From Echinostoma caproni (taxonomy: Eukaryota > Platyhelminthes > Trematoda > Plagiorchiida > Echinostomatidae): a DNA stretch of 64,000 nt. The notes under the pieces are model-generated. The model was not told where the DNA came from and ran no database searches. It saw only the letters and a program-made list of their open reading frames with translations. The number at the start of each line of letters is the position of its first letter. Position 1 is the first letter of the stretch. A program made the position numbers and the translations under genes. The stretch is from assembly GCA_900618425.1 (NCBI GenBank), contig UZAN01039523.1, forward strand, positions 1 to 64,000. Reading direction: 5' to 3'. Below, one piece after another: positions 363 to 60,660 of the stretch.

Positions 363-3300
363 CTGTAGCAAACCAATAAGCAAACATATTAGTGGGAATG
401 TGCACATGGGTAAAGTGGTCATGTATCAGCATGTTACTGTTAGGCGCTTACACGAACAGTCACAAACGGCTGAGTAGACGTTTCACGACAATTTTAGTCA
501 AGCCGTGTTACGGCTGAGTCGTGTCCGGTTGAATTGCTGCGTCAAATGAATTGAAAAGACTGCTCTCCTTAATAATGTATTTTTTCGTCGACGGGATAAG
601 CTCCCTTGTTAGCCGAAACTGTTGTTTAACTTTGAAAAGATGGAAATATACTCACCACCAATGCTATTCATTCATTCATCATTAAAAACAACTGGAACAT
701 ATGAAGTCATGCATTTTTGACAGGCAGTGCGCTGGTGAGTGCACGGACAGTAGAATTTTCTGTTGGTGGGTATCATAAACATGCAATAGACCACTACTCA
801 TTTCAAGCTTTTCACGAGATGTGCACGCACTTTTCTCAAACACTGCGTTTACCAACTAAAAAGGTGCCTATTATGTCAGTCCAAGTTCAGCGGCACAAAT
901 CTCTGTCAGGCTGTGTTGTTTCACTAAGAATATAGAAACGGCTTTTTTGCTACTCAACATGACTCAGTGTAGACATAGGTATCCCATTTCGGGAATACAA
1001 GATCACCCTCATCAGGGCTTAGAAGATCTTAGTCACATATTTGATTGTTGCGCGCGATGGCGTTTAGGAATCTTCAACATTCCAGGTAACCTGTGTGGTT
1101 TCTCGTGATAGTGTTATCAGCCTTTCAACGTTCTCATTCCTTCAGTAGTCTAACACATAGGTTGTCTTAATACATGACCTTTGATAGTTATGTAGTGCAT
1201 TGTGTCGGATATAGATGGAACCTTGGACGAATGGAAAACTTCAGAAGAACTCTACGGTTGCTTCGACCCTGGTGAATTTCAAGGGTAGTGCGAATCCAAC
1301 CACGTGACTTAGGACCGAACCACTGACCTCACAGGCAAAGCTGAAGCTAACTATCCACTTGATCACCAGGAACCTGATTACCTGTTGCAATTGAGTAATG
1401 GAGGATCTGATTTTACCATGTGATGGGGTTTTTTGTGGACAGAGCAAACGGAGTGCGAACCAAATAGCCATGTAGCTGTTTTCACGTTTTGATGTGTTTG
1501 ATTATCATTTACGTTGTGCATCAACCGACTCAGTTGAGAAACGAACCCGAGACATCACAGACACAAGGCAAGCATGCCGCCCAGTTGATCATCTGGCAAT
1601 TGATGAAACCATTATTCTTTGGTTAATTTTTATCTAAGCCGAAAACTGAAGGTGGAGATTATAACTATCTCATTCGGGTCCCATGTACATCACAACAGTT
1701 TCTAGGGTTTAGGATACCGGGTTGTAGAAAGGAGCACTAATTTATCTTTGGCATACTTTTTTGTTCTTCCCGATGAAAAAGTGGCTGAAAACATTGACAA
1801 TAAAAGGTCATTCATTTGAAATAACCAAAAACTATTCCTTTGTAACTAACGCTGTCAAACGTATTGCGCCTTTTAATTCTCTTAACTCTGATATATATCT
1901 TTGATTTAATCTGTTATGACACGTAGCATTGGGTAACATTACTTTATTGAATGTAAATGATCATGTTACTGAACTGTAGTGCAGTCTCCGTAAATAATGA
2001 CGATGTTCTCCACTCAGAAATAATGTTGATATCGCAATTCCTTTAGGCAATGAGTGCAGGGTGAACCACGAGGTGTACACTTCAAACGGCATGTTTGAGC
2101 TTCGGTTACAGAGCGAACTGGAAAACAAGCTGTTTCTTACCCTTGGTCCCTGAGCACCTTCTGTACTCCATCCCGGATGACCTTTCACACCTTTTCGACC
2201 AGCAAACCCTGGCAGCCCTTTGATTCCGGAGATTCCGGGCATTCCAGGCATTCCGTTGTCACCCTGAAAATTAAAAAGGCAACAGAAAATTAATTACAAT
2301 ATTTCATCAACATTGTAATAGAGAGAGAGGATCGGCACTCAGAAGCGGCCGTGGCATTGTCATAGTATTAAATATTAAGGTCCGATAGTTTTAAACAATG
2401 AAGAATGAAGAACAAAAGCCTCCATAAGCATTGAACTGGGTCTGCTCATACGGTTAATATACTGAAAACTTGCCATTTTCGGTATACCATTAGGAGGTGG
2501 GGCTGTCGTGTCATGTTCTGAATTCTATTAATCAATAAGGAGTTTGTAATTCACCGCAATAAACTCACTGTATGAACATGGAAACCGCTTTTTTTACTTT
2601 ATACGTTATGTTATGACCAATCATTCAAAATCTAGTGACGTATTGTCTCTTCATTTATCTCCATTCAGTCGATCACTGGCACAGGTAGGATTCTAGTACT
2701 TATTTTATGAGAGTTGAGTTATTTTGAGCTAACAGGATCGATTGGTTAACTATCAGTACTTCCTCTCCTACCCAAAGTTGATCTAAATCGGTTGATAAAA
2801 CACTGAAAACAATCTTGCTTTTAACTTGTGTTGTTATAACATTATGTGTGATAAAACACATGGTGCGTCAGATGTGAAGGAGAAAACACATCGATCAGTC
2901 ACGGATTGGACTAGTTTTGTTCTTGGTTGACCTTTGCAGTCACAAACGCTCTTGGACCTATTTCACGGTGCTAGTTGGTGTTTTGCTGTGCGAAATCATT
3001 TGTTTTCGTCCCTATTCAACTCAGTATCTCCACGAAGAATCTCAGTTTCTGCCATCAATCTTAATAACGATTTGATGTTTCACACTGTGACATTTTAGCA
3101 TCATGATGCAAAGTCTACGCGCTCCCGACAGGTGTGGAATGACGCATCTCACGATGAGAATCGCAGACGGATGCAGGGATTAAAACTAAATCCAGACAGT
3201 ATTCGTCTGAAAACACGTGTGCAGGGAGCGTTTGCTAAATCTTTCCGTTTTTCCATGGGCACCTTATCGATTCGCATGCACCAGCCATTGATTATATTGG

Positions 3301-6300
3301 TTAGCTAAGTATAGGGCAATGAATCGTTCATATTCTGTATTGAATAATGTCATAAGTTACACAGGAGGATACATTCTGTTTTCGCTCGAATATTGATCAA
3401 TTCTTATCTGTCGAAATGCAATTTTAATCCTGATTGCTAAACCTTGAAATACCTTTCGCATTGCCGTCGTTTGTATGCTCAAAAGTTGTGTTTAGACCGA
3501 TGCATTATTTGTGTATCCTACAGTTCTTCCGGACACAGTACGAGAATTGTTCAATTGAAGTAAACTTGAATATTTCTGTTTGCTCGAGTGTCGATTTTTA
3601 TGATCCCCTTATGCACCCGTATTGTTCGGCAGAGTGGCAATCATTTCATTAGTACTCCTTGGCCTGTATTGCGAGATTGCTTTAATCAAGAGTTTGACAG
3701 ATACTGAATTTTAAGTGGAAAGTTAAAGGCGGTTAGATTTTTTATGGTACTTTATGCTGCATTTCCCTTAAATGGGAAGATTCCAACGGATGCAAATAAT
3801 TAACTTTGCATTTTTCTCGCTCAGATGGTATTCATTTTCCTGCAATACTCTCGGTTAGCACCAGTTACAAAAATATTCATATCTTAAACCTTTATCCGAG
3901 ATCTGAAAGAAAAGTAATATAGATTTGCGAAACGACACATCTCAACAAAACGGACTGAAGCATCTGCGTCTGACTAATTAGACATCCAAGTATGAGTTCG
4001 TACCGAGTCTTGATCTGCATGAAGAATAAATTGAATTCAATTCGGATTTCGTTCAGCACATAACTTACTGGGTCTCCGTAGCATCCCGGTTCTCCCTTGT
4101 CTCCTTTTGGTCCCATGAACCCGGGATTGCCCTGAGTCAAGGGATAACGGTAAGGGAGAAAAGCTCATCACACCATTGATTATCAGATTTCCACGTAATA
4201 CCGTGTAAATACTAACATGAAGATTACACACAGGACACTGTTTTTTCCGGACAATGTTTTGCATAGATCTTCGATTAGGACAGTTCAACATCTCATGAGA
4301 CCGGTGCTTCGCACGCTTTTGCTTGGGGGACAATACACATCTGGTTTAGGGATACGAACATCTGCGATGTGTTGTGTGCGCGTGGGTGGGTGTACCAGAC
4401 TTCAGAAACCGAGTCTGTACAACCCACAGCTAATAGAATAAGCGGCAATCACTGTTGTTAGTCACATTATGATACAAGCGCATTGCAAGAAAAGTAAGAA
4501 TGGCGAGCAGTTGGAAGCCGGAGCCTATGCGCATCAAATGAAAACATCCATCATGCATCAAGTGTTTACAAGCTTGATTTCTATCTTACCAAAACAGTAG
4601 GTTGTTTACCAGACCAACTGCTGGTAAACATATGGCGCGTCCCCGTCTAGATACAATGTTTAATGGAACTTTGCTTCCCGTAAACACAAATATGTTCCGG
4701 TTGGGAACAACGAAGTCGAACATAAATTTGTGCAGTTAGCTAAACTCCCACATGAACATGCAAAACATAATTTTTTTTCAATTGTCAGACAAATGCTATC
4801 GAGTAAGACTAGCGGGTGGCATTTTTCATGTATAATAATTTATTATTATGTTCTGTGCAACGTTTGCAAGCATTAACACGTTTTAAGTTGCTGTCAACAG
4901 ACCAAGGTCCAGAGGTTCGAACCCCACTAACGACAGCTTACGTTGCTGTTTTTTGACTCAGTGCTATGTCTAACCGAGCGGGGCCATGGTTGAATCCCCA
5001 CTCAAAGCCCCAGGGATTAGGTTACATGTTTCCATGGATGAAAATGACTTTCTCAGATCTACATCAATCGGATTACTTCTGACTTTCGAATCATTTCATT
5101 TCCCCGTGTAGATTTGCTTGTTCAGAAGCTTACCATTCAGTGAACTGAATGTGATTTCAATGTTCGTGCCCAGTTGAGGAATTAACAGAGAAATAAATAC
5201 ACTTCGTGATCATGATGTTACTTTTTGTTCTCATAGAAAATATTGATGCAGCTGATGACATCGAGAATGATACACATCCTGAAGTTTACCACGTTGAAGG
5301 AAGTTGGTCAAAGTTTGAACGGCACGAAAACTTTCTTTACAATGGTTACTCGGTGATTAGAAAAATGCAACCCTGTCCTGGGGGACTCGAATCAAAATTT
5401 AGATTCTTGATACGTAGATCGCAAATTATCCTTTCGTTCAGGTTTTGTAAAAAGTATTTCAAAATAGATTGGTAGCGGAATCCAGACAGATAAGCTCCAT
5501 TCCAAGAACGCATATTTGGGGACCGGGATTCTGCAACAGTGTGGAATGTAGTAAAATCAAAGTACAACATAGTATAACTTGTTATTGGCCATTCTGGTTC
5601 GAATAACAGAAGGGTAGAGGTAAAATAAATCAGATAAGATTCAATGAAACAAGCTATAAAGGAGAGCATAATAGGCCTCACTTACTGAAAGCCCATTTTG
5701 ACCATGATAACCAGGTGGTCCTTGAACTCCCTGTAAAATGAAACAGAAGTCAGTTACAGATTACAGAAACCACACAATTTGTCTCCCGGGTGAATGTATG
5801 TTTCACAGCCTAATAAGACTGACAAAAATGTTCTGTTGTGTTATACAAAGCACTAAATAGTAGTACTGAGACTAAAAAACATTGAGCTAAAATACTAAAC
5901 GCTTTCAAGGCGTCAAAGCGTTAATCTTGAATAAAATTTATTGAAGTAAACTTGCCTTATCCTACTACGTTGAATATGGCTGGAAATGTTTACTCTTCTC
6001 TATGTAGAAACTCACATTTAGGCCCAAAATTTATATTACACCTGATTTTTGGTCTTTCTATAGAAAGTATTCATTCAAATTATCTTTCAGATTCATGAAA
6101 CTTTATTCTCTGCTCGTATTTTACAGTTAGTGTTACAAACCTTTTAGTTATGATGCTGATTGTACTCCCATTTGTAGTCCTAAGAAATCCAGGATAATAA
6201 CCGATTACACATCTGGATTCACTTGAAGCCTTTCAAGGAGTTAACTGGATCCCAAGATTCAGAAATCCGGATACTATGGCAAGAAATATTAATTTTTGGT

Positions 6301-9300
6301 TACAGTGAACTTTCTTTGGAACTTCAATGTACCACGTATCATAAATTGTTTGTCAGCAATCAACACATTCAAAAACAAGCGAAACGGGAAAACCCATATC
6401 TCCTTGATGTTTTTTCTAGCGGGAAAAGCTCACCTGTTCTCCTTTGAAACCTTGTCGGCCCAACTGACCGGAATAACCCTTTTCACCCTTGGTTCCCGCT
6501 AGACCCATTGGGCCGGGATCACCGATAGAACCCCATTCACCTGGTGCACCGACCGGGCCTGGTGGTCCCTGCATTGAGGACATAACACAAAAATACGAGT
6601 TTTAAAGGAAAATTCGTTTGTGATTGTGGGTAAAATCATTTACAACATAATTAGCAGTTAGTTCACAGAGATGATGCAGGGGACGGATGGATGAATTAAC
6701 CAATAAGACATACCAGCAACACAACGTCAAGCTAGTGACTGTTTACTAAACTTGAAATGCTGTCAGTAAAGTGTGGGATATACAAAACCCGTGTGACGAA
6801 TAACTGGTATGCAATGCACTGATGTCGAAATCTCATTTCATATTCGCTATGGCTTTGTTTTCTCCGGATAGGAGCGACTACTGAACATAATAGGGAGACG
6901 TCAAAATTTACTGAAATACGGTTGTACGTAAGCGACCCGATAGAAATCATCAATAAATGATGTTTTTTGCACTATGATACTGCTTCGTTTGAGCTTTTTT
7001 ATTGTTCTAAGCACCCCCTTTGGGTGGAAGTTTTTCTTAAGTGATGGATTATATGCCTAAGCCACCACAATGATCAGTATCCATCGCTGGTAGCAGCAGT
7101 TGTAATAATCACGTATACTTTTTCTTCAATAGACATATGTACAATAGGTTATGTTTGATCATGGCCTACGATCCTTTGGCAGCGCATTCAGTTTATTGTC
7201 GCTCCCCCTTTCCCCGCTCATATTCAAGCAGCGCAAGGGACCTAAAAAGGCTATCTTTATTAGTCACCCAACAATGATGCCGTGCGTTCATTGTGGGTCT
7301 ATTCTGCCACTATAGTGAGGTGGATCACTAACTTCGAATCGAGCTTGCGTTTGACAGATGCCGGTCAAAGTGGTCGCGGGGTTTGTATGTGTGTTTACCG
7401 ACGCGTCGGTGTGTCTACACGCTCCTGCAAAACGAGTCAGTGAGCCAATCTGGCCCCGAAGATGTACGACTATGGTTGGCGGAACTCAATAGCGGACATA
7501 CTGATCCAGTTTTTGCTAAGTGTGGAACAATGTTTCTTTTTGAGTAATTTCACGAGGTTTGGTCGACTCTGACAGGCCCAAAGCGAAGCAAGAGAAATCA
7601 ACTCCACAAAACCAGGTGATTTCTTAAAACATGCACTTGGCAGTAAATGTCCATCAGAGCCAATTTTTGTGCATTAATCAAGGGTTATTATTTATCATCG
7701 TCACTGTCATATTTAAGGATGCTTTATTAATTCTTCAATAAATGCTGTGCAGCGCATACAAATTAAAATGATGACTATTGTCATATGTGTTACAGGTGGC
7801 AGCCTAATCTTTGGACGCAATTTCTCAGGACGAACAGAACTGAGTACATTCACTACTTATCAACCATGTGCGCGATAGAAATTTTTTTATCTAATAGCTT
7901 ATATACACACACACAATATGTATTTCCCCTTGAACAGGTCCGCAGCTGCAAAATGAAAATCATTGGAAAAACTACCCATTCATGCCTCATATTTCAAAGG
8001 CTCTGTGATTTTGAGCCAGAACTTTATTTCGTATGCAGGTACCATTCATCGAATTGCGCAATACGCCGCATAACCATTAAGGGTAAAATTTCAAATTCAA
8101 ATAGTTCTTCTACATAGAAATATTTCAGAATGACGTACCATGTTTCCTTTTATTCCAACACATCTGCATTTGTCCGGGGTACAAATTCGCTGACAGCGGT
8201 ACGGATCATCGTAGCCCCATTGCTACGAACCAATTGGCAATGAAGTCGAAGAAAGAAAATCACCAGTTTAGTATAATATTGTTCGACCGAAAGCAAATAC
8301 GGTTCTATTTAAATATTTCGAGAAGAAAAGTTGTGATATACATACATGTGCACATATTTGTTTTATTCTTCCAGGTCATCTGATTTCATTAATCTCGACA
8401 GCTACAGCTACGAAAGGAAATTTGTCAATTTCCTTAAGCAACTTTGTTCTGGTAGCTGTCCAGGAAAACATTCGAGTGCTACGTTTTATTCCCGTACCAT
8501 ATAGTATAGCAACTTTTCACGAAAGAATATATATTTATATATTATTATGGGTTTTGAAATAAGAAAGACAATCACAAAAACTACAAAGGGAGAATAAGCT
8601 TTCTGGTCGTGGTTAGATAATAATGAAATAATTTTAGCTTCATCAATCAGGTACCCGAATATCCATATGGTAAAACATCTATCGAATCAAGCACGCTGAA
8701 GGGTATAACAATTTCCATTCTAAGCTTCCCAAAAACAAGATAATTCATCACTTTAGCAATCAGTTCAATTTACTCATTGTTCTACATTCTTATTCTGGAT
8801 TCAAAGAGTTGATCTCATTAGCCTTAGACTAGACGCGGTTCGTATTATCTCATTCCGTTCAAACATAATCTCTTATTGACTGCGATTACTGTTTTTGCTT
8901 GCCAACTGATATACTGATCAGATATTACTAGTTGACAAAGGAAAAGATTGCATTTTACCATCCATCGGGTTCAGAATGGTTACCATTTAACAGTCACGTA
9001 TGACGCTCTCGTTTTCTTTGAGGTAGCTGCTGGCAACTTAGATCTCACTGAAACAAAGGGAACTTCAGATTTTCGAGATAAAAATATGCAAAATTGGGAT
9101 TAGTTTTGTTCAGTAACTGTGTTGAACAACAGAAATCACATCCTGGCTGAGGGTGAAACAATCTTATAATGAAGAGAGGCACCAAAAGGGCACTTACAAT
9201 GTGTAAAGGTATTGTGATCTTTGCAAAATAATCATGTTTGTTTGTGGCCAGTTAGCCCGTAACCTGCATGGAAGACCTCACTTGATGGAAGGCTTTCGAA

Positions 9301-10004
9301 TGAAGTTAACAGGTAATCAACTGTCTCCGTCCGTTGCTATCGGGCCAAATTGAACTGACCGACGATTTCTGACGACAACACCTGANTTCGGTTCAGCCCT
9401 GGCATGAGCTTGTTGGCAAAGTGGTAATGCACAAGCCTTCTCTGAGATGGATCCAGAGTTCAACTCACGGACGGGACGGTGGTTATGCACTAGTGATGAG
9501 CTCTAATAAGAGCGAAACTTGACTCTAGTGCTGCCAAGTTTATGGTTGACTAGAAGAACTGAGGAATGTGCTCGAAGGTGAAGTCTGAAGGATAATCAGT
9601 TCTAATCAATCAATCAATGTTTTTAATTCGTTTTTGATTTGACTATTCTGAAATGTCTCAATGGAACCAACTGATCCGGCTCGTCGCTTCACCTGGGTAA
9701 AGCTTTTCTGATTCTGCCATTCTAGATGAGCTGTTCACTAGTCATCAACATATGGAGCTAATGATCAAACAATGTATGTGTGCACCCGAGTCGACCGAGT
9801 GCTTAAAGGGACCCTTTCTAGTACAATACACAAATGAAACATGCCCATCTGGGATGTGTGATTCAAATCATTGTGTAAACTTGAAAAAGCATTTGTATGA
9901 CTCACGGCTGATATGTAGAGAGGAGCGATGATAAGAATTCCTAGGCATCCGATCAGTAACCTAAAACCAAAAAAACAATGGAAATTGTTGAAGAATTTTG
10001 CCAT
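327..10004 (-). CDS. COL4A: Type IV collagen alpha chain, 5' part of gene (7 exons, continues off left edge)
   Basis: This gene encodes a secreted basement-membrane collagen chain that trimerises and networks through its N-terminal 7S and C-terminal NC1 domains. I assembled it by eye from seven minus-strand exons: 9906-10004, 8139-8222, 6434-6568, 5686-5730, 4069-4131, 2141-2263 and 327-362. Together they give about 195 residues. Every exon is phase 0 with AG/GT borders, and each collagenous exon starts with a whole Gly codon, as is usual in collagen genes. In order the protein has a 33-residue signal peptide, a short non-collagenous stretch with Cys 43, 47, 52 and 54 (the 7S pattern), then Gly-X-Y repeats with a lone Cys near residue 138 and an interruption near residue 175. 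Introns are 0.7-1.8 kb and contain SINEs. The rest of the triple helix and NC1 lie beyond base 1. Joining the exons is inference, and small exons may be missing. The alpha1/alpha2 subtype is not decided. Confidence 0.88.
972..1015 (-). ncRNA. Weak hammerhead-ribozyme-like motif in collagen intron 6
   Basis: On the minus strand CTGATGA is followed by GGG, a 12-base loop, CCC and then GAAA, which is the order of the hammerhead core around stem II. Downstream a short hairpin (ATGGG/CCTAT, one G-U pair) could be stem III and is followed by GTC. No stem I pairing is visible and the spacing to the cleavage site is off by two bases. It may be a decayed retroelement end or chance. Confidence 0.25.
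1247..1380 (-). mobile_element. tRNA-derived SINE with decayed hammerhead (copy 1)
   Basis: Read on the minus strand, this copy has an A-box-like TGATCAAGTGG (1356-1366), a B box GGTTCGGTCC (1312-1321) and then, at 1247-1291, a relic aligning with the hammerhead of the other copies (GCACTAC, AGGGTCGAAGC, AACCGTAGAG). The CTGATGA core and the GTC cleavage site are lost. It lies in collagen intron 6. Confidence 0.6.
1467..1612 (-). mobile_element. tRNA-derived SINE with decayed hammerhead (copy 2)
   Basis: The minus strand shows an A-box-like TGATCAACTGGGCGG (1577-1591), a B box GGGTTCGTTTC (about 1538-1549) and a hammerhead relic at 1467-1519. The relic starts GCACAACG and ends GAAAACAGCTACATGGC. 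The GAAA and the ACAGCT of stem III survive. It is next to copy 1 in the same intron and orientation. Confidence 0.55.
2141..2263 (-). CDS. COL4A: Collagen IV exon 6: Gly-X-Y repeats with one interruption
   Basis: This 123 bp exon encodes 41 residues, beginning [12 protein letters not shown] and ending GAQGPR. The run GWSTE adds two residues between glycines and so breaks the triplet register; such imperfections are typical of type IV and not of fibrillar collagens. The borders are TTTTCAG| and AGG|GTAAGA. Confidence 0.92.
4069..4131 (-). CDS. COL4A: Collagen IV exon 5: Gly-X-Y repeats with a cysteine
   Basis: This 63 bp exon encodes seven triplets, starting [12 protein letters not shown] and ending GEPGCYGDP, between GACTCAG| and |GTAAGT. 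Type IV chains have a lone Cys inside the N-terminal triple helix (a GxPGC motif), and this matches it. Confidence 0.9.
4604..4629. repeat. Perfect short inverted repeat
   Basis: GTTTACCAG and CTGGTAAAC form a perfect 9-bp stem with an 8-base loop in collagen intron 4. Function unknown. Confidence 0.5.
4890..5025 (+). repeat. Possible tRNA-derived repeat fragments
   Basis: A perfect B-box-like GGTTCGAACCCC occurs near 4914 and a second, TGGTTGAATCCCC, near 4989. No clear A box or tRNA fold accompanies either. They are probably old SINE fragments in collagen intron 4. Confidence 0.35.
5686..5730 (-). CDS. COL4A: Collagen IV exon 4: Gly-X-Y repeats
   Basis: This 45 bp exon encodes five triplets ([15 protein letters not shown]) between TTTTACAG| and |GTAAGT. 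A length of 45 bp is typical of collagen exons, which come in multiples of 9 bp. Confidence 0.88.
6434..6568 (-). CDS. COL4A: Collagen IV exon 3: Gly-X-Y repeats
   Basis: This 135 bp exon encodes 15 uninterrupted Gly-X-Y triplets, beginning [12 protein letters not shown] and ending GRQGFKGEQ. Its borders are GCAG|GGA and CAG|GTGAGC. Lys and Pro occupy many Y positions (GTKGEK, GFKGEQ), as expected for hydroxylation and cross-linking sites. Confidence 0.92.
8139..8222 (-). CDS. COL4A: Collagen IV exon 2: 7S cysteine cluster and start of triple helix
   Basis: This exon is 84 bp, phase 0, between TAG| and |GTACGT. It encodes [21 protein letters not shown] and VGIKGNM. Four cysteines spaced C-3-C-4-C-1-C just before the first Gly-X-Y triplets are the hallmark of the 7S domain of type IV collagen, where they form inter-chain disulfides and lysine cross-links between four triple helices. 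The acceptor has a weak pyrimidine tract. An alternative acceptor inside the exon (CTGTCAG) would remove the first cysteine, so I prefer the longer form. Confidence 0.82.
8397..8460. repeat. Nested 64-nt hairpin in collagen intron 1
   Basis: The outer arms GACAGCTAC and GTAGCTGTC (9 bp, perfect) enclose an inner perfect stem AAGGAAAT/ATTTCCTT with a 6-base loop. The fold could form on either strand. It might be an RNA hairpin or a decayed transposon end; the sequence does not say which. Confidence 0.45.
9405..9600 (+). mobile_element. tRNA-derived SINE with near-intact hammerhead (copy 3)
   Basis: This is the best copy. The A box TTGGCAAAGTGG is at 9413-9424, the B box GAGTTCAACTC at 9456-9466, and the hammerhead fold at 9487-9531. 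A tail follows and ends in TCAATCAATCAATG near 9619. The pol III promoter plus ribozyme layout is that of schistosome Sm-alpha SINEs. It sits in collagen intron 1, antisense to the gene. One N lies just upstream. Confidence 0.75.
9487..9531 (+). ncRNA. Hammerhead ribozyme (type I layout), one core base changed
   Basis: Stem I is GCACTA/TAGTGC (6 bp, perfect). The core reads GTGATGA where CTGATGA is expected, so C3 is changed. Stem II is GCTC/GAGC with a TAATAA loop, followed by GAAAC, a short TTGACT segment and C before the 3' strand of stem I. The C3 change should strongly reduce or abolish cleavage. Fold and register were done by eye. Confidence 0.72.
9906..10004 (-). CDS. COL4A: Collagen IV exon 1: signal peptide
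   Basis: The reading frame encodes 33 residues, starting [14 protein letters not shown] and ending IIAPLYISA. It has a basic/polar start, a hydrophobic core (about residues 11-29) and Ala at -1, which suits signal peptidase cleavage at the exon border. I chose this ATG because its context (AACATGG) is good. An upstream in-frame ATG exists but would lengthen the N-terminus before the hydrophobic core. The exon ends GCC|GTGAGT, a good donor. The phase matches the next exon, which starts with Gln, so the mature chain would begin QWGYDD. The promoter would lie above 10,004, but I see no clear core element there. Confidence 0.75.
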
Positions 10005-29419: not shown

Positions 29420-29575
29420 TGGTATGGTCAGCCGCCCGGTGCTCAAGATTTTAGCATACTCGCGTTTACACGAGAGTTCGGTCTACAAATTCTCACTGAG
29501 GATGAGACCCAATCAAAGTTAAACAACTGTCCAGTGCTTCTTAGGTTTTCACGCTTCACAAGAAATTTACTCAGT
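29420..29575 (+). mobile_element. tRNA-derived SINE with decayed hammerhead (copy 4)
   Basis: A B-box-like GAGTTCGGTC (about 29474-29483) is followed at 29494-29536 by a hammerhead relic. It has CACTG (stem I), AGGATGA in place of the core, GACCC (stem II 5' arm), TTAAAC in place of GAAAC, ACAACTGT (stem III), C and CAGTG (stem I 3' arm). Stem I and the GTC cleavage triplet are intact, while stem II has lost its 3' arm. Confidence 0.6.
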
Positions 29576-30224
29576 ACACGACGAACTGCATTTAATAATA
29601 TGGACCATCATAATTACCATCATCTACATCAGTTAATCAACAACTGACGCATCATCGTCATCACTACCATCGGACAGGCACAGGCACTATTATTGCCGTC
29701 AATATTGTTATTCAAAATGTGAAAGTTTGGCAGATTTGTTTTGTCTATGAAGGTTTATTTATCAAGCAGAATTAACGTCTTGATAACCATTGAAATTTGT
29801 TTGACGTTTTGTGTTTACTTTATCTTTCTCCGAAACCATAATCACTCTACCGATCTACTGAATCCACTGTGATCCGAACTCAGGCTAATGACTTGATCCA
29901 TATTTGTAGACCACCAGCAACTGTTAGGTGCATTTTCAATGCTACGTGTATGATGCTCAATGTTGATGAATGTACCGGACGCTAATAGAACACAGATCTT
30001 TTCCCTTATTTCACAGTGACTTTTATGGTCGAACGAGTTTCCAAGTATTCTAGTAGTAACTGAATGTTCATTCACAGCTTGTGCTCGACATTCACAACAC
30101 TTACAACGTCGTTCTGGATGGAGGAGTCTACTTGGTAGATGTCAAATGTTTATCGGATGTGGGTGCATGTTCGGGGGTGGTGGGAGGGTGGGAATGAATT
30201 CCCCCGGGAACGGTAAAGGTATTC

Positions 30225-31120
30225 TACTTCACCTGTTCGCCGAGCTTGACAATTTGTTTGCACACGTTTCATCACCAGCCGAGGTGACATCATCAGTGCT
30301 TGTGATGTGGCAGTCTTCTGCTTGTATCCGTTCGTTTATTCGTTATTCTCCACTGACTATTTTCGTCCCTTGTTCTCACTGTGTTCGACTCGGTCCGCCG
30401 TTGAACTGCTGCGAGCGGGTGGGGGTGGGAGGGGAGGAAGTTGTCCTTTCGTCCCGACTGCGGTTCCCGTCCGTTCTCACATCACAGCGTGACGTTTGTT
30501 GCGTCATTTNCTTCAGTTGCATTGGCGTGTAGACGTGATCCAGTTCGATGTGACCGTTTATTGAGTTGATTGAAGAGTGCCAGGCCTCAAGAAATCCTCT
30601 GGCCTGTTTTGACCGGGCTTGGTCGGAAATTCTCTCTGATTCGAAGTCAAATTGATGTCCTTCTTGATCTTCGTGGAGGGAAATCAACGATAGTGTATGC
30701 CTCCTGACTGCCGATTGGCGTTCACGGATCCTTGTCGACAGTTTTCTCCCAGTTTGTCCGATATAGTGTTTTGAACAGTTCTTGCAGTTTATTTTGTAGA
30801 TGAAGCTGCTCTTGTCCCTCTCCATTGTTTTCTCTTTGGGTTTTGACAGAAGTCCCCTTATACAGGCGATCGGTTTGTAAGCGACTTGGATACCATACGA
30901 TCTGAGCAGTCTTGCTGTCATTTCCGAAACGTCCTTGATGTACGGCAGGGTCTTTCTTGTTCCCGATTCTCCGTCTGTTGTTACCTTCTTTCTTTGGGTT
31001 AGAGTTCTTTTGATGGAGTTGCGGGTGTAGCCGTTGCGAGCAAATACTCTGAGGAGATATCTGTCTTCTTCTTGAGTTTGTTGGTACTGCAGTGCGTTTG
31101 GATTCTTCTGCACAAGATAC
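30225..31120 (-). mobile_element. Penelope-like element, GIY-YIG half (minus copy of inverted composite)
   Basis: An open frame of about 245 codons (30376-31113) encodes the C-terminal part of a Penelope-like RT protein: a thumb/linker with LLRVFARNGYTRNSIKR and LPYIKDVSEMTARLLRSYGI, then the GIY-YIG endonuclease with SSFIYKINCKNC, YIGQTGRKLSTRIRE and EAWHSSINSINGH. The key Y, YIG, R and E positions look intact. The frame has one N near 30510. An inverted repeat of the plus copy's end occupies about 30225-30395. The catalytic RT palm is missing, so this copy is not autonomous. Confidence 0.85.
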
Positions 31121-31750
31121 TAACACAGCATTTTTGTGGCTGTGTGGATTACTGTGGTCATGGACAAAACGGACTACATTCGAAAGGTTACAGAACTACT
31201 CCAAGACAGAAACATGTACCGCAGGGTCGACAGGTACCCCACTGCAAAACTGGAAAACAAAATCAGCACCACATTAAAACGACTGTAGGAACTACATCAA
31301 ATAACAAGGAAGGAATTCCCTTGAGACCGATCGTCTCTCTTCCAGGAACAGCTGCATACAAGTTAGCACAGAGTTGTGGAAACGACTGAAGCCGCTCATC
31401 GCTGGACACGAGTATCGCGTCATGACCTCAAGGCAATTCCTGGACAAGCTCAAAACTGTCCACATTCAAGAAGACGAAATAATGGTCTCGTTCGACGTCA
31501 CCGCTTTGTTCACTTCGATCGACTTGGACCTGGCAAAATCCACTTTGTGGAAATTGATAACTAAACCCAGTCGAACACAATGAGAACAAGGGACAAAATT
31601 GGTCGGTGGAGAAGAACACATATAAAAGAACGGATACAAGCAGAAGACCGCCACATTACAAGCACTGATGATGTCACCTCGGCTGGTGATGAAACGTTTG
31701 CAAACAAATTTCCAAGATCGGCGAACGGGCAAAATAGAATTCAGTTCATC
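31121..31750 (+). mobile_element. Penelope-like element, RT half (plus copy of inverted composite)
   Basis: Plus-strand frames give ITVVMDKTDYIRKV (31143-31185), PLRPIVSLPGTAAYKLAQ (near 31320-31370), then FLDKLKTVHIQEDEIMVSFD and VTALFTSIDLDLAKSTL (31437-31548). These are RT fingers and palm motif A of Penelope-like elements. A stop (TAG near 31290) and a frameshift break it. The frame ends abruptly and joins the element end at about 31565, so the DD-containing motif C and the GIY-YIG domain are deleted. The end (31565-31750) is the inverted repeat of 30225-30395. Confidence 0.82.
31655..31735 (+). ncRNA. Hammerhead-like motif in Penelope-like element end
   Basis: CTGATGA is followed by an arm (GTCACC/GGTGAT, one G-U pair), then GAAAC and a palindromic GTTTGCAAAC. 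The copy in the inverted repeat (minus strand, about 30240-30300) keeps GTC where this one has TCC. Hammerhead ribozymes are known in the terminal repeats of Penelope-like elements. An extra U before stem II and no visible stem I pairing leave the call uncertain. Confidence 0.45.
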
Positions 31751-31759
31751 CGATCTACG

Positions 31760-32984
31760 AGAACCGATTTTCAATACTTTGTCAACGGTAAAGGTAACCA
31801 CTTTTGGGAGGCTACTCAGTATGAAAGACGATTAGTGAAGAACTCAACAATGACAGCAGATATACATGCTTAAATGCTTGACTGGGAATGTTAACGAATG
31901 TTAACGGAATCTAACGCCTCCAGTAACCTCTGAGAAATGATGTGGCTGGCTAATTACTTTTTTATCTAAATCTCAAAACGTAAGCCATGTTAACAAACCA
32001 GGCAAGCGTGAGAATAAAATTGAGAGGCATTATACACAGTGAGATGTCTTCTGAAAAACATAGATGCACGAACACTGTTGCGGAAAGTTGAGGAAGTGTA
32101 GTTCTACAAATACAGAAATACGTGTAAAGGGTTCAGCACAAGTCCATGTAAGTGAACTCGACGTCTCGTTTTATATAAATGTATTTCCTCCTCCACCTGT
32201 TACTCTATTATTGTACCCAAAGCATATGATTGCGCCGTTACACTAGTTAGTTAGTTAGTTTGCGGAATAATACTAATATTACAAACATATGAACACAGAA
32301 TCCAGTATTAGAATTATTCACCAAAACATTATTTAAAACTTTGACATTTCGGCGGAACCGAATGGTAAACTTGGTAGCAAACCACTGTGGACAATGTTGG
32401 GGACTCAAAATTGTTCTTAGCTTAAACCATTTTGCTGAACAACCAAAAATAAATTATTGAAGCGATCTATCTTTTTTTGAATTGGTGAATCGGATATTCT
32501 GAATTCGAGGCAAGGTGCAAACAATAAGGATTATTCATTTTTTCGGGATTACAAAATAAATAAAATATGATGAATATAATGTAAAAAAGTGTGTGAACCA
32601 GCATCTTATGAATTTGAACCAAATTTATTTATTCATGTTTTTTGTTTTAACAATGAAATGGCACTATTTATGATGTAGTAAATGCAAAAGTAATGAAACG
32701 TATATTGATTTGAGTGGAAAATCTGAATGAACGGTCATTGAGAGGTCATTGATTGCACAATCTCCAGGTCTTGCAATCGATACGTGATCAGTGCCATTCC
32801 TATAGTGCGCGTAGCGCAATTTTCCACTGACCACACCATTCAACGGTGTGACTTGCTTCGGGCGCATATGTCATGCATCAAATGCTAAGTTGTAATTGCC
32901 TCAGATGAACTACCGACCTTATCGTGTCTCAAAGCTGTGACCCTGAAGCTAATTCAATCTTTTAGTAAATATCTAACTCCGAGG
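31760..32984. other. AT-rich stretch, no gene seen
   Basis: No open frame with recognisable motifs. A short tandem TTAG occurs at about 32246-32262. Confidence 0.5.
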
Positions 32985-33260: not shown

Positions 33261-33342
33261 GACCGCGTAGCTCAGCTGGTAGAGCATACGCGTACAAAGT
33301 GTAGGTGGCGTTCATGCGTGGGTTCGTGTCCCACTGAGGCTA
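33261..33342 (+). repeat. tRNA-like sequence (pseudo-tRNA or SINE head)
   Basis: The D arm is perfect (GCTC AGCTGGTA GAGC, 33270-33285) and so is the T stem (GTGGG/CCCAC, 33318-33334). The T loop reads TTCGTGT, with the conserved A58 changed. The anticodon region is about nine bases too long and the ends (GACCGCG and TGAGGCT) cannot form an acceptor stem. It is probably a tRNA-derived repeat. Confidence 0.6.
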
Positions 33343-33344
33343 CT

Positions 33345-35210
33345 GAACGTTTCACAATCGAAATACAAACTTCAAATCTGCCAAACAACGATTTGAACAA
33401 CTATCCTTGACTAAGAAGCTCATTCGGTGAGCTCTGGTGAATTCCAAAGAAAACCTGCTGATCCAATATGTTGAATTTGAAGAGAATGCAATTATGAGCA
33501 GGAAATGATATATTCCTATAGGTTACCATTCATGTTTACACAGTCGCCCTCGGTTGAGGATAATAATTTGTGTGACTTCTCTGATAAAGAAAATATAACA
33601 ATCACGAATCTATTGAAAACTCTGATAAATGTTTTACTTCAAAACATCATTGCAGTACGGTTCCCGATCAGCTGTAACAACTTTGGACGAAGGGCATTGT
33701 TGCCTGGAGCTCACCCTGTACACCAGATACGCCTCACCTCTCTTCCATGTGTACAGGAGCTTCAGTCCTAAGTAATAGACCGTTAGATCATAAATATCAC
33801 TGAAAATCTGACGAAATGCAATTGAAAAAAGCATTGATGGGTAGTGACAGTCATTAAAGATTGCAGTTGAATAAATGACTAAAATCATGGAGGTATATCC
33901 TGACAGACCCAAGTTATTAGACCAAGAAACGTGTGTTCACTAAATGTTTCAATAATTTGACAAATTGTTAAAACTACGGAGTAAATACCCGTTTCTAGGA
34001 AAAACGACTGGCTGGATAACAATCACAAGGGGATGTTTTGCATCAACATTATTCCGGAGAAGATGATATAGGAAGAGTACAGGGTATTCGACGTTCCTTC
34101 AGTCTACTATACTCAGATGACACATTTGAATACAACACGTGAAAATATTGTTTTCCATCTATCTGTTTCATTACTTTGATCACTTTCCCACTATGGACGC
34201 ATTCAATGATGAATTTGAATCATCGCCACTCAGTCTTCTACATTCACTCATTGTATAATTGTCAATTCACGAAGATTACGATTTATCATATAAAACCTAT
34301 AGGCATTAGAGTATTTTGTCAGATTAACACAGAGGCATTGCATTTTTCGGTGCGATAGAATGAAGCTTATTATTGTCTGTGGTGCGTGCAGTTCTAACAA
34401 TGCATCATCTGGAGTTAGATTTCCCTCGATTGAACATTTTTTTTCGTCCGCTTGTCTGCAAGGGCTGCCCGTCAATATAATTAACTGATAAATCGGTCTT
34501 TTGGTATTAATGTGCGTTTTCAAAATTATACCTGAGTATCGATTTTTTTCCGTTTTTAGGACACCTGCCAACTTACAAAAGAACCTAAGTGATCGTAACG
34601 AAGGAGACGATAAACTAAGTGATCATCGCCCAATGCAAGCGAACTATCCTTGATCTCAGGACAGGACAGGCATCAAACGTATCAAAGAACATCAAAATAT
34701 ATATCTTATACCCGGCGAGATGGGATCTCAAATTTCCCTGTTGCACATTGGATCAAGCAGAGAATATGGTGGACACTAATTCGGCTTTCATCAACCTTTT
34801 TTCGGGTTCAAGGACACAAATCCAAAGTCGCTTAAATTAAAACAATAGCGGAAGAGGGGAAATGGTCATTTTCGAGTTTGGATTAGAACTTGGAGCACAA
34901 AAATATTGGTTTCTTCATTGAAAGTGGGTTACATCCAATTATGGCCGAATGATAATCCCCATTAAATGAGAGAGTAGATTGTCCCTCTGCGACATTTTCG
35001 TAATAAACCAATCGACCGCTATCTTTTACCCACGTCATTTTATTCTCCTATGGTTTCCTTTAACATATATGGTGGCATTTACTTGAGAATGTGAAAACCA
35101 GTAAGGTTTTTATACCGACAATTAGTGGTTTGGAGACAACGTTGGGCTCATTTCGTGACTTGAATTTATCCCATCCAGCAAAGTGGCGACAGAAAGATTT
35201 ATGTTGACCG
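33345..35210. other. No recognisable gene
   Basis: Only short, unfamiliar open frames on both strands. Confidence 0.45.
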
Positions 35211-35214
35211 ATAG

Positions 35215-35335
35215 AAAGTACTGGAAATCGGCTTCGTCCTGGTTGGGAATTGTCAAGATTCGAACATTCGGGTCAGTATTTCAAACATGTACACCTCAGC
35301 CACCCAGTCATCACCGAGTGCGAATGGTTTAAGCA
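35215..35335 (-). mobile_element. tRNA-derived SINE with decayed hammerhead (copy 5)
   Basis: The minus strand reads A-box-like TGGCTGAGGTGTACATG, B box GTTCGAATC, then CCCAACCAGGACGAAG (stem II arm, loop, arm and GA) and TCCAGTACTTTC (the 3' stem I region). Stem II of type TCCC/GGA is what I expect for the family ancestor. The core CTGATGA is lost. Confidence 0.6.
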
Positions 35336-35799
35336 GTTAGGAGTAATAAACTTGGAATACTTCATTTGATTTTAGCAGGCACCAGGAACTGTTCTTTCTC
35401 TTAGGTGTGGATGTCACTCTTTTAGAGGTCGTTAAGGTCCACTAGTTGAATTTGTTTATAGGAAAAACATCCACAGTGCCTGGTGGATGTGAATAATCCA
35501 ATGGATTATTCCAAATATAATACTCATGATGATTCAGCCTATTCATATCCTCCCGTCTCCCTCTAGATTGTGTGACATTGCTTGTGAAATTGATTGTTTT
35601 GCATACGATGTCAACTACTTTTGGTAACCTGCAACATCTGAGAGACATTTAACTTTGATGTTAAAATACCGCAATATCTGAGTTATCAGAAGACATGCTA
35701 TTACTTAATTGGATACAATGAATTTTGTCATCTAATGAGCCAATGAAACGTAAAGAGCAAACCTGGGGGGCACTTAACAGCTGCTTCGATCTGGTTTGG

Positions 35800-35960
35800 C
35801 CTCACCAACAGTGCAAACCCGTCGACCCAACTGGTGTCTTTTATGGTTCAATCCCGATTTGAGTCGATTATTTCACATTATTGATAAGACTCAACAAATC
35901 AAAACAGCTGTTCAGTGCTTCCCAGTTTTTCCGTTCTCGTTGCATTTGCTCTTTATAGGA
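35800..35960 (+). mobile_element. tRNA-derived SINE with decayed hammerhead (copy 6)
   Basis: A B box GGTTCAATCCC (about 35845) is followed at 35874-35917 by a hammerhead relic. It has CACATT, TTGATAA in place of the core, GACTC, CAAA in place of GAAA, a perfect palindromic stem III ACAGCTGT, T at the cleavage position, and CAGTG. The 3' flank CTTCCCAGTTTTTC matches copies 3 and 4. It lies about 0.5 kb from copy 5, in opposite orientation. Confidence 0.6.
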
Positions 35961-36059
35961 CAAAGGTCACAAATCAATCACAACCAATTCCTCTATTACT
36001 TTCATGTAATTAAATATGAATAAAACTGTGATCACTATATTCCGGGATTCGCTTGAAAG

Positions 36060-37147: not shown

Positions 37148-37605
37148 GAACAAAGAGTGGCGAGCAAGCTCGTTTTCAGTGAGTCGTAGTCATGCCAATA
37201 CATCACAATCACTATCATGCTGTTTGTATGGGTATCAGTATTCAAATTAAAAAAAAATTATAAAACACCAATTAAGTAATTTGAGGAGAGAAAAATTTAT
37301 ATCATAAGAATTTGCCTGCATAAACTCCATCTGTCTGCCCACCACACACAACATATCCCGAGATGTCCCAAATATGAGACCTAACAATTATGTGATCAAT
37401 GGGAATTCCATATCTGGTCAGAAAACGAGATTATCCCCTATAATGTTCACCTATCCACGTATAATGTTAGTTTTCCCCTGACCAAAACAATTTTTTGGGT
37501 TTCATAGTCAAATACTGATACATATTTAAACAGGATGATATTTACCGTGATGTATTTGTATTACTACAAATCACCGAAAACGAGCTTGTTCGCCACTCTT
37601 TGTTC
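37148..37605 (+). mobile_element. Foldback/MITE-like element with long inverted ends, copy E (complete)
   Basis: The left end GAACAAAGAGTGGCGAGCAA and the right end, read in reverse, GAACAAAGAGTGGCGAACAA continue together as near-perfect inverted repeats for about 33 bp. They then stay alignable at lower identity for about 110 bp on each side. The internal part contains ATATCCCGAGATGTCCC. There is no coding capacity and no clear target-site duplication. Copies D and F show it is a dispersed family. Confidence 0.72.
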
Positions 37606-59064: not shown

Positions 59065-60660
59065 GCAATGTCAAAGACGAAGTTTTATTATGGGAATAAC
59101 TTACAAGCTCGTGCTTCTCTTGTCCCCATAGGATATTTACACAGACGAATCGGTACACGTCGGAAAAGGAATCACATAGAGTTCCGGGTAGGAGATAATA
59201 AAGAATGTAGGCTACAGTGAATTTCCGTTTGCTTTTAATGGTGTTTGAATGTAAGGTGTGTCAAGGTTTCATCGATTCTATGTTTGAAAGATTCATTGGT
59301 GGATGCACAAATGACGTGAGATGGAAGGGCGTTCGAAGAACTGCATACTCTGACTGCAAAAGGCTGGCGCCGGCATTCTAGTCGACACTTTAGAATCAGT
59401 AACTTAAAACGGTCTCCCCTTGGATGTATGTACATTATTTGATAACATCAGCAGCGATCGACACGGATGGTTTGGGTTCTGTAGTATTTGATACGTCAAA
59501 ATCAAATTTCCCCGAGTTCGGCGTTACTAAGCATAATATAAGCCCAATGATTGTAATCTCTCCTCATATGTCAAGTAATACAATCTCTTGACCATCTTGG
59601 TGACCATCCTTTGTGGACGCTCAAGTAGCTTGCGATCACTTTGAAGCCATGGACTCCAAGCTTGACTCTGTGTAGGGTCTAATGTACGCTGATAGCAAAC
59701 GTGAGAATAATGATGATTCAAGCCGACCAAAGACTCACATATGTAAGCCGACATTCTTCGTAGCAGCGGACGAAGCCTTAGCACAATTTATGGAGTTGCT
59801 TAAATCCTTCTGAACAACAACACCTAAGTCCTTTTCACTAGAAGTGTATGGTAGCTGCTGATCCCCGAGGAAATACGAGAATTTCCGCTGTGGCGCAGGG
59901 ATAGGACTTTGCATTTAGCATCTCTAAATTCAATGTCACTCTTCTTAGACCATTGATAAGCTGTATTGCGTTATTCCTGAGGTGCTAAAGAGCCCTCTGA
60001 TTCTGATACCTTGTTCCAGATTTTGGCTTCGTCTGCAAACAGTATTTTTTTGGGCCTAACACTTTGGGTAGATCATTTATGAAGGTAAGAAACACATGGA
60101 GACCGAGTACGGACCATTGTGGAACACCGCTGGTGGCTTTGATTGATCCAGAAATGGAATCAGAAACACGAACTGATATGGTTCGTTTTTTGAGGAATGC
60201 TTTATCCAATCCAATGCGAAATCTCGAATGCTATAGTTGTAGATCTTATGAAGCAAACTTTTGTTATTCGCCCGATCAAATGCGTTCGAGAAGTCTAGAT
60301 AAATCGCATCCACCGCATCCCCTTCGTCGACTGTTGTGGTCCATTCGTCGCGAAAAAGAAGCAGTTTGGTGGTGCAGGATCGCTTTCGCCTGAACCCGTG
60401 TTGAGCTGTCGAAAGAATGTTGTATCTTTTGAGGTGTTCCATCAGAGAATCTACCACAATTGACTACACGACTTCCGATAACACCGGAGGCAGGGTTACA
60501 GGTCGGTAGTTAACGGGGTCACTACGACAACCACCTTTGTATATGGGCGAAATGACTCCTTGTTTCCACGATTCGGGGAAGGTTCCTTGGTTGAACATTC
60601 GTTGAAACATAATGACACCACTGCTACTGAAAGCTGTCACGCCGGTTCACCCGTAAGTTG
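59065..60660 (-). mobile_element. Decayed CR1-like non-LTR retrotransposon (LINE D)
   Basis: From 5' to 3' on the minus strand there are RT fingers with FPESWKQGVISPIYKGG and DPVNYRPVTLPPVLSE (about 60480-60600). Palm QHGFRRKRSCTTKLLLF and AIYLDFSNAFDRANNKSLL follow (60220-60410), then frameshifted motif B/C debris (60000-60210, INDLPKVLGPKK). The thumb/C-terminus has WSPWLQSDRKLLERPQRMVT and MVKRLYYLTYEERLQSLGL (59527-59784), and the end segment RGDRFKLLILKCRLECRRQP is at 59235-59435. A 3' UTR runs to about 59065. The motif C aspartates are not readable in frame. The endonuclease is missing, as usual for 5'-truncated LINEs. Confidence 0.82.

Follow-up and report, generated by a model that had tools for sequence, protein, structure and literature searches.

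Does the region 9405-9600 of the 64-kb stretch of DNA introduced above (hereafter the window) hold a short interspersed nuclear element (SINE) that carries a hammerhead ribozyme and, if so, does it belong to a family, can it still cleave and how could it have moved? The first-pass annotation had read there the A and B boxes of an RNA polymerase III (Pol III) promoter followed by a hammerhead fold. Here, we propose that the locus is very probably a decayed element of the Smalpha/Sjalpha type, that is, a SINE derived from a transfer RNA (tRNA) with a type I hammerhead and a 3′ tail, and that it is part of a dispersed family in which at least three subfamilies coexist. Ferbeyre 1998 and Laha 2000 are reportedly the sources for these elements of Schistosoma.

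Sequences and searches

The window comes from a genome of 426.5 Mb in 12,689 contigs. Outside it, a first sample comprised 20 stretches of 10 kb picked by contig number (174,338 non-N bases, two stretches being all N), and a second one five stretches (41,112 non-N bases), four from copy-bearing contigs and one from the window's own contig; L-numbers (L001 etc.) designate these 25 loci. Each window copy was searched with profiles built without that copy (leave-one-out), and the whole window with the 4227 Rfam families, expectation values (E) being scaled to 64 kb; the gathering scores are 52 bits for HH9 (RF02275) and 34 bits for the type I hammerhead (RF00163). Pairing was analysed on A2, an alignment of 18 hammerhead copies, six of them from the window, from which the 1467 copy and weaker hits were excluded. 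Promoter boxes were scored on 19 copies as the best match to the generally known A-box and B-box consensus strings (11 positions each), and neighbour pairs (≤300 bp) were counted on 20 copies against 5000 random placements. The three subfamilies, A, B and C, were grouped by eye from alignments.

The 9405 copy

The focal copy, all on the plus strand, is composed as follows.

9387..9610, plus: subfamily-A hammerhead SINE copy with tRNA-like head, hammerhead and 3′ tail (BLAST)
9414-9424, plus: A box TGGCAAAGTGG, 11/11 consensus positions
9457-9467, plus: degenerate B box, 8/11 consensus positions
9479..9543, plus: hammerhead remnant (Rfam HH9, 29.8 bits; stem I 6/6 and stem II 4/4 paired)
9487-9492/9526-9531, plus: stem I
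9493-9499, plus: core GTGATGA
9500-9503/9510-9513, plus: stem II
9514-9517, plus: GAAA

The letters read in the first pass (A box, B box, stem I GCACTA/TAGTGC, GTGATGA, GCTC/GAGC and GAAAC) were confirmed one by one, and so was the hammerhead remnant, which follows a perfect A box and a weak B box. Indeed, HH9 matches 9479-9543 on the plus strand with an E of 9.8e-6 on 301 bases and of 0.0021 on the whole window with all families, at a score of 29.8 bits that lies under the gathering score of 52. HH9, which we take to be an amniote motif, is the best match to this copy and has the same GCUC-NNNNNN-GAGC stem II. The copy is also recovered by the leave-one-out profile (E 2.9e-5), and BLAST shows its resemblance to L005:4150-3926 (78%), L009 (73-76%) and L010 (72%, from 9260). 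Terminal inverted repeats, hinted at by the relatives in L005, L010 and L015, were considered as part of the copy and rejected, as 120 of 300 shuffles were equally good at 9405.

The hammerhead is damaged at two places: C3 of the core is changed to G, and the stem III base G16.2 is mutated, so that the pair 15.2-16.2 is lost. Loss of C3 should abolish hammerhead cleavage, as known from mutagenesis, and with both bases mutated the 9405 copy should be dead. For the hammerhead core, PMC8490949 cites Ruffner 1990.

A family in the window and beyond

Seven candidate copies, three on the plus and four on the minus strand, were found in the window. Besides the 9405 copy, these are:

1232..1299, minus: hammerhead remnant (1247 copy) with head upstream on the minus strand and core destroyed; leave-one-out E 0.0044; A box 10/11 and B box 8/11 at family offsets
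1462..1577, minus: head-to-tail neighbour of the former (1467 copy) with recognisable head; leave-one-out E 490; BLAST on the head
29485..29560, plus: hammerhead remnant (29494 copy), subfamily B-like; leave-one-out E 2.1e-8
35198..35270, minus: hammerhead remnant (35215 copy), subfamily C-like; leave-one-out E 0.084; 75% to L009:5532-5595 (E 6e-6)
35758..35822, minus: hammerhead remnant (35780 copy), inverted partner of the following copy; leave-one-out E 7.4e-9; palindrome 35724-35964
35869..35945, plus: hammerhead remnant (35874 copy), subfamily B-like, B box 9/11 at family offset; leave-one-out E 4.2e-8

Four of them (9405, 29494, 35780 and 35874) are solid, 1247 is fair, 35215 is marginal, its E of 0.084 being ahead of that of the best non-family stretch (0.9), and 1467 is recognised by its tRNA-like head alone. 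The head of the latter, 1520-1577, matches L003:9240-9297 (BLAST, E 2.8e-5), while its hammerhead part finds no independent support in the leave-one-out search. The first-pass annotation had counted at least six copies in 36 kb. Of the six loci, five were found again by leave-one-out, 35215 weakly; the hammerhead at 1467 was not supported, and the copy at 35758-35822 on the minus strand had been overlooked. The five loci which it had likened to 9405, three of them (1247, 1467 and 35215) on the minus strand, do align outside the boxes, as seen with profiles and BLAST, with 1467 aligning only by its head and 35215 marginally; furthermore, among its six loci one gives a significant covariance-model hit, HH9 at 9405. 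When the seven window loci were aligned pairwise, 6 of the 21 pairs, all among the four solid copies, beat all 500 dinucleotide shuffles; the remaining 15 did not, several being no better than shuffles. Rfam reported no hammerhead of any family at or above its gathering score in the window, every copy staying below the 34 bits of RF00163. In 29440-29600 and in 35740-35960, it gave no hammerhead hit even at E≤10. Since Rfam is silent there, the copies in these two regions are known by homology and not by an intact fold.

The family is also found outside the window, dispersed over sampled contigs. With a profile built on the seven loci and a threshold of E<1e-4, 13 new copies were detected in the first sample and none in the second; the window and all sampled stretches, when reversed, gave none (best E 0.59). 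Taken at face value, the samples show a density close to 6 per 100 kb, which would mean tens of thousands of copies in the genome; the error is wide, as the sample is small and the copies are clustered. In S. mansoni, more than 38,000 hammerhead candidates are reported in PMC2770079. Five further stretches gave no Rfam hammerhead at E≤0.5, and a scan of viral contigs for the motif gave no match.

Subfamilies and conserved pairing

The subfamilies differ in their stems. Subfamily A, which includes 9405, has stem II GCTC/GAGC and, in its best-kept member, stem III ACTCGAGT; subfamily B has stem II GACC/GGTC, stem III ACAGCTGT and cleavage site GTA; subfamily C has stem II GTCC/GGAC, stem III ACAGCTGT and cleavage site GTC. 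The ancestor inferred in the first pass fits subfamily C best, and subfamily B save for stem II and the cleavage site; 9405 itself falls in a different subfamily. Two subfamily C copies reach the Rfam type I cut-off, L009:5558-5599 (43.7 bits) and L004:9479-9515 (34.1 bits), the core of the former being one base off the consensus CUGAcGAGUCCCAAAUAGGACGAAAC, while L003:9371-9415 of subfamily B (32.5 bits) and L014:5584-5628 (23.1 bits) remain below it. These sibling copies, together with the compensatory differences in stem II, support the kinship with schistosome Sm-alpha that the first-pass annotation had suggested.

Indeed, across the 18 copies the stem II sequences of the subfamilies differ by compensatory changes. 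We found that 79.6% of the cells are paired and that 30 are changed on both sides, against shuffle means of 71.6% and 15.8 (0/500 reach either) and maxima of 44.9% and 9 in slid controls. Box positions are shared among copies: 7 of the 19 have their best A-box match (9-11 of 11 positions) at offset 42-46, and 10 have their best B-box match (8-11 of 11) at 85-88. Both are at family offsets in five copies, 42-44 nt apart and with the hammerhead about 20 nt past the B box, and the order of head, hammerhead and tail is kept wherever the head is. In copies without boxes at these offsets, the head is lost or replaced, or a better match is found elsewhere.

Several observations weigh against reading the family as hammerhead SINEs. 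First, one or both best box matches lie elsewhere in 14 of the 19 copies, and an A-box score of 9/11 often arises by chance; ARAGORN found no tRNA in any of 18 sampled loci. Then, two of five covariation measures (pairs changed on both sides and further pair types) are not above shuffles, and RNAalifold gave no consensus fold on A2. The changes are, besides, common to copies within subfamilies, which reduces the compensatory changes to few events. None of the 18 aligned copies is fully intact, nor does any have all stems intact, and the second sample yielded no copy at E<1e-4. Finally, BLAST extends the subfamily-A homology (9260-9609 against L010) to some 150 nt before the A box, which is odd for a plain Pol III SINE; with this extension, it is uncertain where the transcript began, and an origin like that of retrozymes may be considered.

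Two other observations may be mentioned here. L003:3117-3188 on the minus strand holds a hammerhead of another type (26.7 bits with HH9 and 23 bits with R2). Its CTGATGA and GAAA are intact, its stem II is GCGG/CCGC and its loopless stem III ACCGGT, but the cleavage position is occupied by G. Within the window, 33261-33342 on the plus strand matches the tRNA model (34 bits) and is called tRNA-Cys, anticodon ACA, by ARAGORN; it is possibly another tRNA-derived repeat.

State of decay

The first-pass annotation had proposed to count the copies with intact parts. On the 18 aligned copies from the window and samples, CTGANGA is intact in 8, GAAA in 5 and a cleavable U-H site in 14, and three copies have all three, that is, the whole core. 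The core is broken in all six window copies of A2, none of which keeps CTGANGA, and judging from their letters the present window copies should not cleave. We also noted that G12 is A in 8 of the 18 copies (A2 column 37), with CGA changed to CAA in six of these, which looks like CpG decay. In the SmPoMuc intronic hammerheads of S. mansoni, G12 is described as retained in one group only (PMC2576457).

Inverted pairs

The copies are not scattered as random placement would have it. Five neighbour pairs were counted against a random mean of 0.39 (0/5000 reach 5), and four of them are inverted, all head to head (35821/35870 in the window, and pairs in L003, L009 and L014). The sole direct pair, 1298/1524, about 226 bp apart within 1232-1577, stands or falls with the 1467 copy, which is weak. 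In L005, a partial copy forms an additional inverted partner. Random placement is a crude null, and insertion hot spots could also yield clusters. In all sampled DNA, 12 loci have inverted repeats within 900 bp: five lie on hammerhead SINEs and one, in L001, on Penelope sequence, which leaves six that are neither. The arms of the window pair, 35724-35964, are 67% alike, no more than each is to L003 (70-76%), which counts against a single copying event per pair. The arms are closer to each other than to other copies in L003, where they agree at 110 of 128 aligned positions, and in L005 (88%).

Folding z-scores at the inverted loci range from -5.9 to -33 (three loci, both strands). Selection for an RNA hairpin, with strand-biased G-U pairs as its sign, was considered and dropped because six arm pairs show no clear excess of G-U (45) over A-C (32) differences; the arms are simple inverted duplicates. 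In the literature searched, though never with head-to-head as a search term, such pairs of hammerhead SINEs were not found reported, which is weak evidence of absence as subscription journals were largely outside its scope.

Other inverted structures were also noted. The window contains at 37148-37605 a repeat resembling a miniature inverted-repeat transposable element; its inverted ends measure 95 bp (83%), and stretches like it occur in L004 and L021. Long palindromes at L003:7264-7820 (68%), with relatives in L011 and L023, and at L021:8124-8604 (79%) overlap no listed hammerhead copy.

A Penelope-like element in the window

An inverted arrangement combined with hammerheads is also seen in a Penelope-like element, whose pseudo-long terminal repeats (pseudo-LTRs) flank an open reading frame (ORF).

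30221-31740: Penelope-like element with inverted pseudo-LTRs
30376..31113, minus: Penelope-like ORF, GIY-YIG endonuclease region (35 relatives, best E 6e-79; Pfam GIY-YIG below cut-off)
30221..30394, minus: pseudo-LTR with minimal hammerhead at 30251-30311 (minus); 87.5% inverted match to 31565-31740; profile match
31565..31740, plus: second pseudo-LTR with minimal hammerhead at 31650-31709 (plus); inverted match; profile match

Among the named sources of ORF relatives, Clonorchis is the nearest (49%), followed by sharks, Heterobilharzia and Schistosoma. Both pseudo-LTRs (about 175 bp) contain a minimal hammerhead with intact CTGATGA and GAAAC. The sample contains six such stretches, two with core changes or a deletion, and the reversed sequence none. 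One of the minimal hammerheads folds unremarkably (z -0.74), and Rfam reports none of them, so that the call is founded on the resemblance to the described Penelope motif. A reverse transcriptase fragment, nearest to Echinostoma caproni (56%), was also noted at 60080-60463 on the minus strand.

Alternative origins

As an alternative, the copies might be non-LTR retrozymes, that is, unit-length repeats giving circular RNA, and not Pol III SINEs, their boxes being relics or coincidence. Animal retrozymes are described as tandem repeats of 150-450 bp with type I hammerheads, in platyhelminths among others (PMC7229834), and our copies share with them small size, lack of coding sequence, the type I hammerhead and a weak stem III, one pair of copies being in tandem. 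The head-to-tail pair in 1232-1577 and the homology upstream of the A box speak for such an origin. However, the 20 copies include a single direct pair, in which the weak 1467 copy is one partner, and several copies, though a minority, have A and B boxes at constant offsets. We regard a retrozyme origin as a serious but rather unlikely explanation.

That the motifs are stray pieces of Penelope pseudo-LTRs, which carry minimal hammerheads of their own in the window and share the inverted arrangement, is very improbable: the Penelope motif differs in stem II (GTCACC/GGTGAT) and in its flanks, tRNA-like heads are present in several SINE copies, and no SINE copy is hit when 29700-31900 is compared by BLAST with the window and the 25 loci. 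The SINE units also showed no coding sequence.

A resident hammerhead kept for a host role, for example intronic cleavage, is still harder to credit. HH9 is the best Rfam family, amniote intronic hammerheads are said to resemble those of trematode retroelements (PMC6155905), and collagen-like exons lie at 1964-4164 on the minus strand; but C3 and 16.2 are broken at 9405, no window copy of A2 has CTGANGA and the copies are many and dispersed. The collagen triple-helix matches themselves, at 1964-2293 and 3895-4164 on the minus strand, are below the Pfam cut-off and are probably host collagen exons.

A chance resemblance of box-like and hammerhead-like strings in 64 kb, which the shortness of the single parts and the failing 1467 and marginal 35215 copies might suggest, is rejected for the family as next to inconceivable in view of the E of 0.0021 in the window, the 13 unseen copies against none in reversed sequence and the compensatory changes, and could still account for the hammerhead part of 1467 alone.

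Possible cleavage and mobilization

For a hammerhead SINE, the following steps may be proposed. Pol III would make an RNA from the A and B boxes, and an intact hammerhead would cut it just 5′ of the 3′ strand of stem I, after the counterpart of position 9525. RNA that was uncut, tandem or ligated would then serve as template for reverse transcription in trans. Two ribozymes could pair through their palindromic stem III for dimer cleavage.

The four inner bases of stem III are self-complementary in both sequence types, the pairs 42-45 and 43-44 being present in 12 and 14 of the 18 copies. The sequence of stem III varies between subfamilies while its palindromic character is kept, a hint that pairing of two ribozymes is under selection. 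When homodimers were folded in silico, L009_5599 (subfamily C), L015_5785 (A) and L003_9369 (B) gave a double hammerhead with an 8-bp stem III, and four of the seven natural copies tested did not. Dimer-type cleavage, as suggested in the first pass from the loopless stem III, is thus possible and would fit the predicted folds. It would not be new in kind, being described for newt and other amphibian hammerheads (PMC6155905, PMC7229834). A dimer need not be obligatory, since stem III is also loopless in the Rfam type I consensus structure and schistosome hammerheads described with an extremely short stem III cleaved in vitro (PMC8490949).

Penelope elements are described with head-to-head inverted pseudo-LTRs and self-priming (PMC3846280), and were proposed from co-occurrence to mobilise retrozymes (PMC7761336). 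The head-to-head SINE pairs match this arrangement and the window contains a Penelope-like element, which makes Penelope machinery a testable mobiliser. In one scenario, the SINEs would be copied by Penelope-type machinery, their partner being Penelope and not a long interspersed nuclear element, the head-to-head duplicates would be a footprint of self-priming, and the palindromic stem III would serve dimer-type cleavage of multi-unit RNAs. Joining the inverted pairs, the Penelope features and the retrozyme proposals in this way is our own inference, and we hold the scenario as tentative and, taken as a whole, doubtful. For a lizard Penelope element, uncut RNA was reported as the main insertion substrate, with no RNA ends at the cleavage site (PMC11167929); the hammerhead may accordingly be dispensable for movement.

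Relatives and significance

Smalpha is described as related to tRNA-Gln (PMC2770079), with A and B boxes preceding the hammerhead (PMC2576457), and hammerhead SINE-like elements, W36.2 among them (PMC8490949), are reported in at least four Schistosoma species (PMC8490949, PMC2770079, PMC5993326). The present family resembles Smalpha/Sjalpha by its tRNA-like promoter head, its type I hammerhead with a very short stem III and its high dispersed copy number, a likeness drawn from descriptions of these elements. The Smalpha unit is about 330 bp long. The present family differs by having three subfamilies, of which A and B have other stem II or stem III sequences (with a GTA site in B), by its inverted pairs and by its decay in the sample.

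While hammerhead SINEs are already known from blood flukes, the inverted-pair signature hints at something new. As to how hammerhead SINEs and retrozymes move, a Penelope footprint would be readable from DNA alone if the head-to-head excess holds genome-wide. Moreover, a fluke genome report describes SINEs as scarce in flukes (PMC6191129); if the species lies outside the schistosomes, the hammerhead SINE family would be wider than that report implies.

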